From assembly GCF_009939295.1 (NCBI RefSeq), contig NZ_WVIC01000017.1:20872-84509 (forward strand): DNA of 63,638 bases. Reading direction: 5' to 3'. Source of the DNA: Petrachloros mirabilis ULC683 (GTDB lineage Bacteria; Cyanobacteriota; Cyanobacteriia; Thermosynechococcales; Thermosynechococcaceae). Made by a program: the position numbers and the translations under genes. Of this stretch, positions 1,596 to 60,578 are shown one piece after another. The notes beneath the pieces are model-generated. The model saw nothing but the letters and a program-made list of their open reading frames with translations. It was not told the DNA's origin and ran no database searches. Every line of letters starts with the position of its first letter. The stretch's first letter is position 1.

Positions 1596-2534
1596 ATGCG
1601 GATCTTGGTGATGGGGGGTACCCGCTTTATTGGAGTGTACCTAATTCGGCTGCTACTTGCTCAAGGCCATGAGGTGTCAATCTTTAGTCGAGGTAAGCGT
1701 CCGATTCCTCAGGGGGTGCGCCACCTTCAAGGAGATCGGCAGGATGGGGCGCAATTGAAGGCCGCTTTGGCGACGGAAGACTTTGATGTCATTTTTGACA
1801 ATAATGGCCGTGAACTTAGCGATACTCAGCCGCTAGTCGAAATATTTCAAGGTCGCATCCAGCAGTTTATTTATATGAGTTCGGCGGGGGTCTATCTCAA
1901 GTCGGATCAAATGCCGCACCGAGAGGGGGATGCCCTAGATCCAAACAGTCGTCACCGAGGAAAGTCTGAGACAGAAGACTACTTACAGGCTCAGGGGCTT
2001 CCATTCACGGCTATTCGTCCTACTTATATCTATGGGTCTCAAAATTATAATGACTTAGAGGCTTGGTTTTTTGATCGGATTGTGCGCGATCGCACCCTCC
2101 CCATTCCTGGCAATGGCACCCATTTTACCCAGTTTGGTCATGTGAACGATCTAGCCGCTGCTATGGTGGCCACCCTCGGAAATCCCCAGGCGGTTGGGCA
2201 GATTTACAACATCAGCGGTGCGCGAGCGGTCACCTTCAATGGACTGGCTCGGGCCTGCGCGATCGCAGCCGGGAGGTCCCCAGAGCAACTCAAGTTCGTT
2301 CACTATGACCCCAAAGCCTTTGACTTTGGCAAGCGCAAAGCCTTTCCCATGCGGGTGCAGCATTTTTTTACCGATGTTCACAAAGCCATGACCGATCTAG
2401 ATTGGCAGCCTCAGTTTGACCTGGTGACCGGTCTGCAAGATTCGTTCCAGCAAGACTACTTGGCTCAGAAGCGCGATCAAGCTTCGATTGACTTTTCTCT
2501 AGACGATCAAATTTTGGCCTCAGAGGCGGTTTGA
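1596..2534 (+). CDS. NAD-dependent epimerase/dehydratase, CSP41-like
   Basis: A 312-residue atypical short-chain dehydrogenase. The Rossmann motif GGTRFIG lies at residues 7-13 and the active-site-like YMSSAGVY at 93-100, but no Lys stands four residues after Tyr100, so the classical YxxxK pair is not evident. The pattern matches the CSP41 group (chloroplast stem-loop RNA-binding proteins and their cyanobacterial homologues), where the fold is used for RNA binding rather than clear redox catalysis. The last codons and the stop (GAG GCG GTT TGA) are contributed by the terminal repeat of a mobile element starting at 2523. Without it the chain would have ended a few codons later over the 3' end of pfkA. 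Confidence 0.8.
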   Translation: MRILVMGGTRFIGVYLIRLLLAQGHEVSIFSRGKRPIPQGVRHLQGDRQDGAQLKAALATEDFDVIFDNNGRELSDTQPLVEIFQGRIQQFIYMSSAGVYLKSDQMPHREGDALDPNSRHRGKSETEDYLQAQGLPFTAIRPTYIYGSQNYNDLEAWFFDRIVRDRTLPIPGNGTHFTQFGHVNDLAAAMVATLGNPQAVGQIYNISGARAVTFNGLARACAIAAGRSPEQLKFVHYDPKAFDFGKRKAFPMRVQHFFTDVHKAMTDLDWQPQFDLVTGLQDSFQQDYLAQKRDQASIDFSLDDQILASEAV

Positions 2535-2815
2535 AAAGTTTTTAACGCCTTGCACCCGCCCCCTAAATCCCCCATTCTGGGGGGCTTAGATCATTGTTTA
2601 ACGTGAGTTCGACAGCTCTCGTCTGCCCTCCAACCCCTCTCCCAATGTTGGGAGAGGGGCTAAAACCTTGAATTTGTGCTCTGTTCCCCCTCTCCCAATG
2701 TTGGGAGAGGGGGCTAGGGGGTGAGGGCGGATAAGTCCTCGAACTCACGTTTGTTTAAGTCCTCGGGGGGGTTGGGGGGCGAATGTAGGGCATGAGAGGA
2801 TGTCAAAACAGCCTC
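2523..2815. mobile_element. Family A miniature element, copy 1, interrupted by a family B element
   Basis: The left end begins GAGGCGGTTTGAAAAG and the reverse complement of the right end begins GAGGCTGTTTTGAC. It is flanked by the direct repeat TCA (2520-2522 and 2816-2818) in CTCAG contexts. Inner parts carry the C-run/G-run palindromes seen in the other copies. Removing the nested 150-bp element and its 7-bp duplication leaves 136 bp. It lies exactly between two convergent genes: its left end supplies the stop of the CSP41-like gene and its right target duplication is the pfkA stop codon. Confidence 0.75.
2601..2750. mobile_element. Family B 150-bp miniature element nested in family A
   Basis: Perfect 12-bp inverted ends ACGTGAGTTCGA (2601-2612) and TCGAACTCACGT (2739-2750), flanked by the 7-bp direct repeat TTGTTTA (2594-2600 and 2751-2757). 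Inside are two copies of the hairpin CTCTCCCAATGTTGGGAGAG (around 2636-2657 and 2690-2711). No ORF of note, so it is non-autonomous. The boundaries are unusually clear because it sits inside another repeat. Confidence 0.8.
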
Positions 2816-3889
2816 TCAGTCTCCTAGGTAAATCCCCAACCCTCGCGCCGTTCGTACCAGCGTGCTTTCAGGATCGACAGCTTGGTAGTGTGCGATCGCA
2901 TCAGCAATGGGCACACTCACCACTTTCCGGTTTTGCCAGGTCACCATGTGGTCGAACCGTGCTTCGGCAACGAGATCCACAGCAGCCACGCCAAAGGCCG
3001 AGGCAATCAATCGATCCAGGGGTGAAGGAATGCCCCCCCGCTGCACATGCCCCAGAACGGTGACTCGGGTTTCGGCAACATGACGCTGGCAAATTTCTTC
3101 GGTAAGGTACTGACCAATGCCCCCCAGCCGACATTGCCCCAGGCTGTCAGTGGTAGTGATAGCTGTCCCCGTTTCTGTGCGGGCTGCTTCTGCCACAATA
3201 ATCAAAGAGTAGTTTTTGCCCTGGGCTTGCCGCTCCTTGAGCTTGTCACACACTTTTTCCACAGAGAAGGGAATCTCAGGAATCAGGATAATGTCGGCTC
3301 CACCTGCAATACCAGCACTGATGGCGATGTGACCCGCATCTCGTCCCATCACTTCTAAGACAATCACCCGACTGTGGCTGGCAGCCGTAAACTGAAGCCG
3401 ATCCAGGGCTTCCGTGGCAATATTAACGGCGGTATCAAAGCCAATGGAGCGCTCTGTGACCCCCACATCATTGTCAATGGTTTTGGGAATGCCTACCAGA
3501 TTCCAGCCCCCTTGCTGAGCCAGCTTCCGCAGAATGGCCAGACTGCCATCTCCGCCAATGCCGATGATGGCATCCAACCCTAACTGGTGGTACCCCCGGC
3601 TAATATCCTCGGAGCGATCGCGCAGGGTGCCATCGGGCATCGGAAAGGCAAAGGGATTGCCCTTATTGGTTGTACCCAAAACCGTACCACCAGCCGTGAG
3701 CAGTGAGCCAACCGCCTTGGGATCTAGAAGAACAGCTTGGGGTGGATCAGCCATGAGCCCTTGGGTGGCCTGTCGTATGCCCATCACTTCCCAGCCATAT
3801 TCAGCGGCACGAAGAACTACAGCACGAATAACTGGATTGAGTCCGGCACAGTCTCCGCCACTGGTCAGAATCCCAATTCGCTTGCCCAT
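2816..3889 (-). CDS. pfkA: 6-phosphofructokinase
   Basis: Phosphorylates fructose 6-phosphate to the 1,6-bisphosphate in glycolysis. The 357 residues carry the PFK-A signatures: GGDCAG at 11-16 (GGDAPG-like), GGDGS at 112-116 and PKTIDND at 135-141. In this superfamily a Gly in GGDGS goes with ATP use, whereas Lys in PKTIDND is common in PPi-type enzymes and in the longer ATP-PFK clades, so ATP is the better guess but not certain. The ATG at 3889 is preceded by GGAGC. The stop codon coincides with the target duplication of the element downstream. Confidence 0.92.
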   Translation of the reverse strand: MGKRIGILTSGGDCAGLNPVIRAVVLRAAEYGWEVMGIRQATQGLMADPPQAVLLDPKAVGSLLTAGGTVLGTTNKGNPFAFPMPDGTLRDRSEDISRGYHQLGLDAIIGIGGDGSLAILRKLAQQGGWNLVGIPKTIDNDVGVTERSIGFDTAVNIATEALDRLQFTAASHSRVIVLEVMGRDAGHIAISAGIAGGADIILIPEIPFSVEKVCDKLKERQAQGKNYSLIIVAEAARTETGTAITTTDSLGQCRLGGIGQYLTEEICQRHVAETRVTVLGHVQRGGIPSPLDRLIASAFGVAAVDLVAEARFDHMVTWQNRKVVSVPIADAIAHYQAVDPESTLVRTARGLGIYLGD

Positions 3890-7717: not shown

Positions 7718-10201
7718 ATGTTAACGCCATTCCGCACCGCCGCCGTTCTGGGTGCCGGGGTGATGGGCACCCAAATTGCCGCCCACCTGGCCAATGCAGG
7801 GCTGACCGTGCATCTGTTGGATCTGGCCAGCCCCAATGCCAGCTCAAATGACAGCCCCAATGCCCTGGTGGAAACCGCCCTAGCCAAAGGCCGTGCCGCC
7901 TCACCCCCAATCTTTTTTACGGAAGCGGTGGTGCAGCGGGTGATTCCCGGCAACTATGACCAGGATTTTGAACGCCTGGCTGATGTGGACTGGGTGATCG
8001 AAGCCGTTGTGGAAGATCTGACCATTAAACGCCAGCTCATGGCTCGCCTGGAAACCGTTGTTGGCGAGCAGACCGTCATTTCCACCAACACCAGCGGCTT
8101 GCCCATTCACCAGGTTGCGGCTGGGTGCAGTCCCAGTTTTCGGCGGCGCTTTTTGGGCACCCACTTTTTTAACCCCCCCCGCTATCTGAAATTGCTGGAG
8201 CTGATTCCCACCCCCGACACCGATCCCCAGGTGCTAGAGCGGCTGCGAGCCTTTGCGGAGCTGTACCTGGGCAAGGGCGTCGTAGTGGCCAAGGACACCC
8301 CCACCTTCATTGGCAACCGCATTGGCCTGTTTGCCATTCTCCTGGGACTGCGATCGCTCTTAGAGGGCTACACCATCACCGAAATTGATACCCTCACGGG
8401 TGCTCTGGTGGGACGACCCAAATCGGCGACCTTTCGCACTGCTGATCTGGTGGGTTTGGATATTTTACGAGCGGTGGCCATGCACCTCTACCAGGCGGTT
8501 CCCCAGGATGAGCACCGCCAGTTATTCCGTGTCCCTGATCTGCTCCACAAGCTAGTGGAGACCGGATCTTTAGGTGCCAAAACCGGCCAGGGGTTCTACA
8601 AAAAGGTGCAGGGACAAATTCTCAGCCTCAACCCCCAGACCCTGGCCTATGAGCCACCTGCTCCTCTGGACTTGGGGGATTTAGATGCGATCGCAGCCCT
8701 GCCGGACTTGGGCGAACGGCTGCACCGCCTCTATGCGGATCCGGGACGAGCCGGACAGTTTTTCCGGGACACCACCCTGGCGCTAATTCACTACAGTGCC
8801 CACCGCATCCCTGAAATTGCCGATCACCCCACTGATATTGATCGGGCCATGCGCTGGGGTTTTGGTTGGGAGCTGGGGCCCTTTGGCCTGTGGCAAGCCC
8901 TGGGCATCGAGCGGGTGAGCACAGATCTGGCTCAGCGGGGGATGGTGTTGCCGAATTGGGTCGAGCAATGGCAGCAGGATGAAACAGATGCTCAGAGAGT
9001 GTTTGAAAAGGTGTCTAGATCTTGGACTCGCCCCCCTAGCCCCCCAAGTTTGGGGGGAACAGGAACAGAGTTGTCGCCTTCCTCCCCCCAAACTTGGGGG
9101 GTCGGGGGGGCTAATGCAGGGGTGGATGAGACTTCTCAAGCCCTCTCTCAGCGCCACCGAGAAAAAGGACGATTGCTGCACCATCTCAGTCCAGATCTAG
9201 ATCTCAAGGCCATTTGCCAGGATCCCCAGCGTATCCTCTGGCAGAATCCGGAAGCCGCTCTGGTGGATCTGGGCGAGGGCGTGGTGCTCTATGAGTTTCG
9301 CTCCAAGGGCAACACGCTCAGCTTCAAGGTGATCGAAGGACTGGCCACCGTCCTGGATCGTCTGGCGGTCGAAGACTGGCACGGTTTGGTAATTGGCAAT
9401 GCTAGCCCCAACTTTTGTGGCGGAGCCAATTTGGTGGAAATGGCGGGGCTGGCTCAGCAGGGTCGCCTGGACGCCATCGAGGCGTTAATTAGCCAGTTCC
9501 AATCCCTTTTGCAGCGTCTGCACTATTTCCCGAAGCCCATCGTGGCAGCGGTGCAGGGGCGAGCCCTTGGGGGCGGCTGTGAGCTGGTGATGGCCTGTCC
9601 CCAGGTGGTGGCGGCGGCGGAAAGCTATATCGGCCTGGTGGAGCTGAGCGTGGGTCTGATTCCCGGAGCGGGGGGGATCATGCGCCTAGCAGCCTGGGCG
9701 TCAGAACGGGGCGCGTCGGAGCGCGCCAGTGAGGTGCAGCCGTTTTTGAGTCGAGCCTTTGCCACCATTGCCATGGCCAAGGTGTCGGGCAGTGCCCTAG
9801 AAGCTCAGGACTGGGGATTCTTGCCCCCCACGACCCGCGTGGTTATGGATGCGGATCGGCGGCTAGCGGTGGCCAAAGAAGAGGTGTTGCGCCTCAGCCG
9901 AGAGGGCTATCGACCCCCGGCTCCCCGTCAGATTCGGGTACTGGGGCGTCCCGGTCGGGCGGTGCTGGAGCATGGAGCCTATCTCTTCCAGGCCGGGGGC
10001 TATATCTCGGACTACGATCGCGCCCTGGCCCAGCGGTTGGCCCAGGTGATCACAGGGGGCGACTTTTCAGCACCGGCCTGGGTGTCTGAAGATCATCTGC
10101 TGGCGCTGGAGCGGCAGCAGTTTGTGCCCTTGCTGCGGGAGCCCAAAACCCAGGCGCGCATTGCCCATTTGCTCAAGACCAAGAAGCCCCTGCGGAATTA
10201 G
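7718..10201 (+). CDS. fadN: 3-hydroxyacyl-CoA dehydrogenase / enoyl-CoA hydratase fusion, FadN type
   Basis: 827 residues with SD GCGAGGAG before the ATG. The N-terminal half is a 3-hydroxyacyl-CoA dehydrogenase (NAD motif GAGVMG at 12-17). The C-terminal part (~510-770) is an enoyl-CoA hydratase with the oxyanion stretch GRALGGGCE near 614. Dehydrogenase first and hydratase second is the order of Bacillus FadN, opposite to E. coli FadB. It catalyses hydration of trans-2-enoyl-CoA and oxidation of the hydroxyacyl-CoA. Residues 427-478 (52 aa) are encoded by a family A mobile element plus its target duplication; without them the protein would be 775 aa, close to the family's usual length. Confidence 0.92.
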   Translation: MLTPFRTAAVLGAGVMGTQIAAHLANAGLTVHLLDLASPNASSNDSPNALVETALAKGRAASPPIFFTEAVVQRVIPGNYDQDFERLADVDWVIEAVVEDLTIKRQLMARLETVVGEQTVISTNTSGLPIHQVAAGCSPSFRRRFLGTHFFNPPRYLKLLELIPTPDTDPQVLERLRAFAELYLGKGVVVAKDTPTFIGNRIGLFAILLGLRSLLEGYTITEIDTLTGALVGRPKSATFRTADLVGLDILRAVAMHLYQAVPQDEHRQLFRVPDLLHKLVETGSLGAKTGQGFYKKVQGQILSLNPQTLAYEPPAPLDLGDLDAIAALPDLGERLHRLYADPGRAGQFFRDTTLALIHYSAHRIPEIADHPTDIDRAMRWGFGWELGPFGLWQALGIERVSTDLAQRGMVLPNWVEQWQQDETDAQRVFEKVSRSWTRPPSPPSLGGTGTELSPSSPQTWGVGGANAGVDETSQALSQRHREKGRLLHHLSPDLDLKAICQDPQRILWQNPEAALVDLGEGVVLYEFRSKGNTLSFKVIEGLATVLDRLAVEDWHGLVIGNASPNFCGGANLVEMAGLAQQGRLDAIEALISQFQSLLQRLHYFPKPIVAAVQGRALGGGCELVMACPQVVAAAESYIGLVELSVGLIPGAGGIMRLAAWASERGASERASEVQPFLSRAFATIAMAKVSGSALEAQDWGFLPPTTRVVMDADRRLAVAKEEVLRLSREGYRPPAPRQIRVLGRPGRAVLEHGAYLFQAGGYISDYDRALAQRLAQVITGGDFSAPAWVSEDHLLALERQQFVPLLREPKTQARIAHLLKTKKPLRN
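8995..9147. mobile_element. Family A miniature element, copy 2, in frame inside fadN
   Basis: The left end GAGAGTGTTTGAAAAG and the right end (reverse complement GAGAGGGCTTGAGAAG) are imperfect 16-bp inverted repeats, flanked by TCA at 8992-8994 and 9148-9150. The inner arms are C-run/G-run palindromes. The length of 153 bp plus the 3-bp duplication is 156 bp, or 52 codons, so the frame is kept and no stop is introduced. It lies between the two catalytic domains. Confidence 0.8.
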
Positions 10202-13867: not shown

Positions 13868-13895
13868 CTTCAGACTCAAGTACAGTTCATCTCCT

Positions 13896-14003
13896 TATAG
13901 CGGTTTACAGATCAATGGAGTACATGGGGTGCAGGGGGCGCTGCCCCCTGCGTGGGGGTTACACCCCCACACCCCGTACCTCACTCAGATGAGAACCGCT
14001 GTA
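13896..14003. mobile_element. Family C 108-bp palindromic element, copy 1
   Basis: Starts TATAGCGGTT and ends AACCGCTGTA, with inner hairpins built from GCAGGGGGC/GCCCCCTGC and GTGGGGGT/ACCCCCAC. It is in inverse orientation to the other three copies at 45389, 53148 and 60457, all exactly 108 bp. No coding capacity. The ends read as TA-flanked, as in MITEs that insert at TA. Confidence 0.85.
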
Positions 14004-14049
14004 TTAGAGGCAATCTTAATTCAGAGATCGAGAACTTTGTCCAAATTAT

Positions 14050-45388: not shown

Positions 45389-45496
45389 TATAGCGGTTCT
45401 CACCTGAGTGAGGTACGGGGTGTGAGGGTGGAACCCCCACGCAGGGGGCACTGCCCCCTGCACCCCATGTACTCCATTGATCTGTAAACCGCTATA
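45389..45496. mobile_element. Family C 108-bp palindromic element, copy 2
   Basis: TATAGCGGTT to AACCGCTATA, same orientation as copies at 53148 and 60457. It starts just 3 bp past the DUF4079 stop codon and could serve as its transcript end because of the GC-rich internal hairpin. Confidence 0.88.
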
Positions 45497-45869
45497 TATG
45501 GCTCGACTTTCTCATCTAGCCAGAGACGTTGACTGAAATTTTGTCATCCTCTGTTAGGCTTTGCAGCTAAGCTTCCTGTACAATGACCTACTGTATTAAA
45601 TGTGTCAAACTAACTTGAACAAGATTTGGTTGGCACCACAATGATAGTTCAGCCTTCAGTCTAAGGTGCATGAGTTCTGCCGCAACGACCGTCTGACCCC
45701 ATTGATGGGACGCGATGACCAAAGCCCCCTTAGAAATTAGTGCAGATGCTCTGTGAGTCGAGGTGAGTCAGATAGCTCCTCTAGCCAACCTCTTGGGCGA
45801 CTATCCTTAGATCTACAGCCTTCTCATCAACGCCATACCCCCTGACATTGCTTAACCCCAAAATTTACT
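45497..45869. other. 373-bp leader region of serA
   Basis: No gene seen. Very short start-to-stop runs occur (for example 45715-45756) but have no supporting ribosome site. TACAAT near 45580 is a possible -10 for serA but lacks a clear -35. Confidence 0.4.
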
Positions 45870-48614: not shown

Positions 48615-48624
48615 GGTTCTGTTA

Positions 48625-48792
48625 GAGGCCGTTTGAAAAGCCTCATTCATCCCTGCATTAGCCCCCCCGACCCCCCAAAATTGGGGGGAGAAAGCCATAA
48701 ACTCTGACCATTTCCCCCAGAGTTACGCCCTGCGGGCACGCTGCGCGAGGGGGGGGCGAGTGCAAGGTCTAAGCAACTTCTCAAACAGGCTC
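48625..48792. mobile_element. Family A miniature element, copy 3
   Basis: Left end GAGGCCGTTTGAAAAG, right end (reverse complement) GAGCCTGTTTGAGAAG, flanked by TTA at 48622-48624 and 48793-48795. The interior shares CCCTGCATTAGCCCCCCC with the fadN copy. It is 168 bp because the middle also holds GCCCTGCGGGCACGCTGCGC, a common cyanobacterial repeat. It starts 10 bp after the prmA stop. Confidence 0.75.
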
Positions 48793-48798
48793 TTAGGA

Positions 48799-53147: not shown

Positions 53148-53255
53148 TATAGCGGTTCTCACCTGAGTGAGGTACGGGGTGTGGGGGTTCCACCCCCACG
53201 CAGGGGGCAGTGCCCCCTGCACCCCATGTACTCCATTGATCTGTAAACCGCTATA
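53148..53255. mobile_element. Family C 108-bp palindromic element, copy 3
   Basis: TATAGCGGTT to AACCGCTATA in the gap between the convergent RDD and metH genes. Differs from copy 2 at only a few bases; the central hairpin loop reads TTCC instead of GGAA. Confidence 0.9.
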
Positions 53256-53382
53256 CTAGGCTTCCATAGCTGAACCTACTACGGTATTCAGCTTAATCAG
53301 GAGATCAGGGTGTCGATCTTGGAACCCATATCTGATCCGCCAACCGGGCAACGTCAACGGAGCAATGATCGGGAACTCACCA

Positions 53383-60456: not shown

Positions 60457-60564
60457 TATAGCGGTTCTCACCTGAGTGAGGTATGGGGTGTGGGGGTGGA
60501 ACCCCCACGCAGGGGGCAGCGCCCCCTGCACCCCATGTACTCCATTGATCTGTAAACCGCTGTA
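60457..60564. mobile_element. Family C 108-bp palindromic element, copy 4
   Basis: TATAGCGGTT to AACCGCTGTA, next to the start region of the TPR gene and before the DUF4278 terminator. Nearly the same sequence as copies 2 and 3. Confidence 0.9.
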
Positions 60565-60578
60565 ACAATTTACGCTAA

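Follow-up and report, generated by a model that had tools for sequence, protein, structure and literature searches.

In the window (the whole stretch of 63,638 nt that was analysed, from Petrachloros mirabilis ULC683), a small non-coding element is located in the stop codon of pfkA, and an element of a second kind is nested inside it. Very probably, a non-autonomous MITE with a TNA target entered the TCA of the pfkA stop when this codon lay within an overlap with the neighboring gene, and a second MITE was later nested in the first. The case is clear but largely ordinary for an already known kind of insertion. The features are the following (evidence in brackets):

1596-2534, plus strand: CSP41-like gene, of the atypical SDR / NAD-dependent epimerase fold (ORF; Pfam Epimerase PF01370, E 9e-23)
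2520-2522: left TCA copy of the target duplication, an in-frame Ser codon of the CSP41-like gene (sequence; family analysis of target duplications)
2523-2815: outer MITE, split by the inner MITE (family matches; alignment after removal of the inner MITE and one 7-bp copy)
2523-2538, plus strand: left terminal repeat of the outer MITE, GAGGCGGTTTGAAAAG, of which bases 2523-2534 encode E-A-V-stop (sequence, family comparison)
2594-2600: left 7-bp duplication TTGTTTA of the inner MITE (sequence)
2601-2750: inner MITE, 150 bp, terminal repeats ACGTGAGTTCGA/TCGAACTCACGT (repeat family comparison)
2751-2757: right 7-bp duplication TTGTTTA of the inner MITE (sequence)
2801-2815, minus strand: right terminal repeat of the outer MITE, GAGGCTGTTTTGACA in minus-strand reading (sequence, family comparison)
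2816-2818: right TCA copy of the target duplication, identical with the pfkA stop (sequence; family analysis of target duplications)
2816-3889, minus strand: pfkA, ATP-dependent 6-phosphofructokinase (ORF; NF010674, E 4e-195; PF00365, E 8e-100)

The CSP41-like gene, whose orthologues (60-74% identity) are present across many cyanobacteria, and pfkA form a convergent pair with stops now 281 nt apart. The CSP41-like 3' end reads ATT TTG GCC TCA GAG GCG GTT TGA, leading to the C-terminus A-S-E-A-V, in which the Ser codon TCA is host sequence and E-A-V-stop (GAG GCG GTT TGA) is the element's own contribution. On the opposite side, the right TCA is the stop codon of pfkA, read as TGA on the minus strand. 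That the terminal repeat supplies the CSP41-like stop and that the right TCA is the pfkA stop had been stated in a preliminary description of the locus and was borne out by the present analysis, as was the placement of the insertion in TCA. When the flanks were joined with a single TCA, the sequence became CAA ATT TTG GCC TCA GTC TCC TAG, i.e., Q I L A S V S stop, in agreement with the A-S-V-S ending and the former 3' overlap predicted earlier; this CSP41-like end and that of pfkA share 12 nt, both stops included. It was the stop codon of pfkA, within this predicted gene overlap, that served as target of the outer MITE, and the context of this target, CTCAG, fits the CTNAG favored by the family (see below). 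The preliminary description had seen a single family A copy at 2519-2819, lying exactly between two convergent stops. Its positions and codons were right and the insertion is indeed at the convergent gene ends; however, it falls within the pfkA stop rather than between separate stops, spans 2520-2818 with both TCA duplications, and consists of an outer repeat of that family plus a second, nested MITE at 2601-2750 that had been missed.

The composite nature of the element was apparent from genome searches. Used as a query in full, the element was matched along its whole length once, and its middle part alone was matched about 40 times; with the two outer parts fused as the query, a 142-150-bp repeat was recovered at some 40 places. 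Taking out the inner MITE and one TTGTTTA left an outer element of 142 bp (counting one TCA copy) that aligned with its family from end to end. Because removal of the inner MITE restores a full-length outer element, the structure represents one MITE within another, and the outer one was the first to insert. The two parts belong to different, unrelated families, and both are short, flanked by target duplications, provided with TIRs, devoid of a transposase gene and dispersed in many copies. The only ORF of at least 60 aa in the composite element is 61 aa long and no transposase gene was found there. The inner family comprises about 45 copies in the genome, with ends ACGTGAGTTCGA; the length between the outer ends of the terminal repeats was 154 bp in all 26 copies measured, compared with 150 bp for the copy in the window, and the duplication was of 7 bp in 14 and of 8 bp in 5 of these 26. 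Unpaired inner terminal repeats were considered as the trace of an IS, and proved to be fragments, truncated or degenerate copies. Rfam matches to the element were weak, concerned animal microRNA families far below gathering scores, and were set aside as chance hairpin similarity.

The outer family has at least 44 copies in the genome, with ends GAGGC.GTTTGAAAA and AGACTTTAAAGACAGCCTC, and the following statistics rest on the 44 copies inspected. Identical TNA triplets were found on both sides of 35 copies (10 TAA, 10 TTA, 9 TCA and 6 TGA). Within these 35 targets the T and the A were invariant, with C preferred at the preceding position (22) and G at the following one (19). Since the outer repeat recurs at some 40 places and 35/44 copies carry identical TNA, the match of the CSP41-like gene end to the terminal repeat is not due to chance. 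A genome from a different genus of the same family (G003, locus L168) also carries an outer-type element, 82% identical and with a TCA duplication; hence, the outer family extends beyond the genome studied here. Besides, a whole-genome count (G000) of the TNAGAGGCNGTYTTDANA terminal repeat, with at most one mismatch, gave 152 occurrences versus 5 for the reversed pattern, which points to a larger superfamily of TNA-flanked elements in the genome; GAGGCCGTCTGAAAA is a frequent subtype among these repeats. A sister element is located in the window at 48622-48795, with a TTA duplication and the ends GAGGCCGTTTGAAAAGC and GAGCCTGTTTGAGAAG.

The state that preceded the insertion was approached through related genomes. 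In three genomes of the same family (G015, G019 and G021), the convergent pair occurs without the element and its stops are 69-70 nt apart; in a fourth relative, 761 nt separate them. The CSP41-like tails of the three are DDQIL-AAAA, -AAAA and -AAVS, respectively, the last being encoded by GCA GCA GTG TCC TAG. The predicted pre-insertion tail, DDQIL-ASVS (GCC TCA GTC TCC TAG), has the same length as these four-residue tails and is nearly codon-identical to the AAVS relative, with the same TCC TAG end, in a comparison where the nearest CSP41-like orthologue is 74% identical and the empty site is taken from the joined flanks, not from a genome of the same genus. From these joined flanks, we infer that the two genes once overlapped. 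Because the genes of the relatives lie 69-70 nt apart, this overlap would be the derived state, and it probably arose by loss of the spacer. On this strand, pfkA ends in the relatives with GTC(T/A)CCGAGGTA, the SDR gene ends in one relative with GTGTCCTAG, and the joined site here reads GTCTCCTAGGTA. A deletion between such similar pfkA-end and SDR-end stretches may have removed the spacer and brought the SDR stop into a pfkA Leu codon; a point change from GAG to TAG is another possible route to the old stop. Since the TAG predicted to have closed the old reading frame falls within the pfkA codons for YLGD, one of these two events must also be assumed before the insertion.

According to the favored scenario, a MITE with the TIR GAGGC.GTTTGAAAA and a 3-bp TNA target would have inserted into the TCA of the pfkA stop, which then belonged to the final codons of the convergent CSP41-like gene. 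As the TCA was duplicated, pfkA would have retained its stop at the right-hand end, and three codons of the left TIR, read in frame, would have led to a new CSP41-like stop, converting S-V-S-TAG into S-E-A-V-TGA. The second, unrelated MITE (mostly with a 7-8-bp duplication) would later have entered the first one, so that 281 nt with a strong tendency to form hairpins now separate the two stops.

The MITE could have been kept for terminating transcription in both directions or insulating the two convergent genes from each other, thereby repairing an interference caused by their overlap, an explanation that we regard as unlikely, albeit the best of the alternatives. In its favor, the RNA of the element folds far better than shuffled sequences (-169.8 vs. 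-111.3 kcal/mol, z -12.2), and a spacer of 69-70 nt is retained in the relatives. However, any palindromic MITE is expected to fold strongly, a terminator scan of the element found no stem-loop followed by a U-run (the canonical intrinsic terminator, a T-run in DNA), and the same families are found at many other places without such a gene arrangement. Terminator scans of the intergenic spacers of the relatives also found nothing. Separation of the two transcripts by the element, as put forward in the preliminary description, is possible but unproven. Far less probable is an insertion into an existing spacer followed by deletions that trimmed both flanks down to the ends of the element, so that the genes would never have overlapped. 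The spacer of the relatives would offer a starting point for this course of events, which has to accommodate two intact element ends, matching TCA duplications and a predicted joined tail with the length of a normal CSP41-like ending; trimming on two sides to an exact duplication is unlikely. Finally, an ancestral GAG GCG GTT TGA ending that resembles a terminal repeat by chance can practically be discarded, as the match runs through the whole 142-bp repeat at some 40 places, the family alignment contradicts it, and none of about 50 CSP41-like orthologues ends in GAG GCG GTT TGA or in EAV, the ending that, in genomes free of the element, would have refuted the preliminary description.

In six of the 44 outer copies, the insertion coincides precisely with the stop codon of a long neighboring ORF, namely pfkA in the window and the genes for a glycosyltransferase (L036), a ComEC-type competence protein (L043), SpoIIM (L044), a methyltransferase (L045) and a protein of 171 aa with no Pfam match (L054). 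The stop survives in all six, because the duplicated TNA is itself TGA or TAA, or because TTA followed by the first G of the element reads TAG. Based on the gene calls of the window, stop codons make up approximately 4-5% of the TNA sites that are either intergenic or part of a stop. Compared with an expectation of about 5%, the 6/44 observed correspond to a P of about 0.01-0.03 in a post hoc test prompted by the window copy, and to about 0.03-0.08 when this copy is left out. An enrichment of the outer family at stop codons was considered on these grounds and is not claimed as established; its likely cause would be that harmless insertions survive, not that stops are targeted. On a tentative view that is more likely wrong than right, a TNA-targeting MITE family may build up at gene ends, where stops could be entered without harm and an insertion could set overlapping convergent genes apart: the duplication would keep a TAA or TGA, the first G would turn TTA into TAG, and the TIR would give the overlapping frame a stop. 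The open-access literature yielded no account of a TNA MITE that targets stop codons, which is weak evidence. The locus is a well-resolved example of small mobile elements rewriting gene ends with no obvious damage: the duplication preserved one stop, the repeat provided another, and two presumably overlapping genes were pulled apart. The 6/44 pattern is suggestive of a simple rule, open to testing, on where elements with a TNA target persist. At L046 1501, another outer copy would end a 294-nt ORF, possibly a spurious one, with S-E-A-V-stop.

A 3-bp TNA target duplication is a trait of MITEs derived from the IS5 family (IS1031/ISL2-type). The outer family resembles them in this duplication and in a TIR starting with GAG, and differs in that the genome yielded no IS5-type transposase bounded by such ends; its membership in that group is thus not established. 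More generally, no autonomous transposase with matching terminal repeats was detected in this draft assembly of 79 contigs, which may hide multicopy IS, and PF13359, PF13586 and PF13340 had no match in it. Two PF01609 matches were examined as the autonomous partner and rejected, since they lack these ends. Bacterial MITEs are short and multicopy, with TIRs, target duplications and no transposase, and they can enter or alter reading frames; in cyanobacteria, Nezha and the MITEs of Anabaena and Microcystis are known (PMC10969869). Both families described here share these general traits. What distinguishes the present case is the replaced 3' end at a convergent pair and the nesting of one family in another, neither family having been matched to a named MITE.

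The Rickettsia palindromic elements (RPE) are palindromic repeats of ~150 bp that add codons to a protein (PMC10969869). The outer MITE is similar to them in being a palindromic repeat of about 150 bp that gives codons to a protein, although it provides only three C-terminal codons and a stop. A sister MITE of the window (8992-9150, TCA duplication, ends GAGAGTGTTTGAAAAGG and GAGAGAGGGCTTGAGAAGTC) does lie in frame within a gene, an ORF of 827 aa (7718-10201, plus strand) whose start resembles 3-hydroxyacyl-CoA dehydrogenase. This insert of 156 bp, or 52 codons, falls in a variable linker (about residues 420-490) where alignments to relatives break; most relatives have open frames of 795-807 aa. 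In addition, the window contains a further repeat family of ~110 bp, with four copies (13895-14005, 45389-45503, 53148-53262 and 60457-60571) in both orientations and with 90-95% identity.
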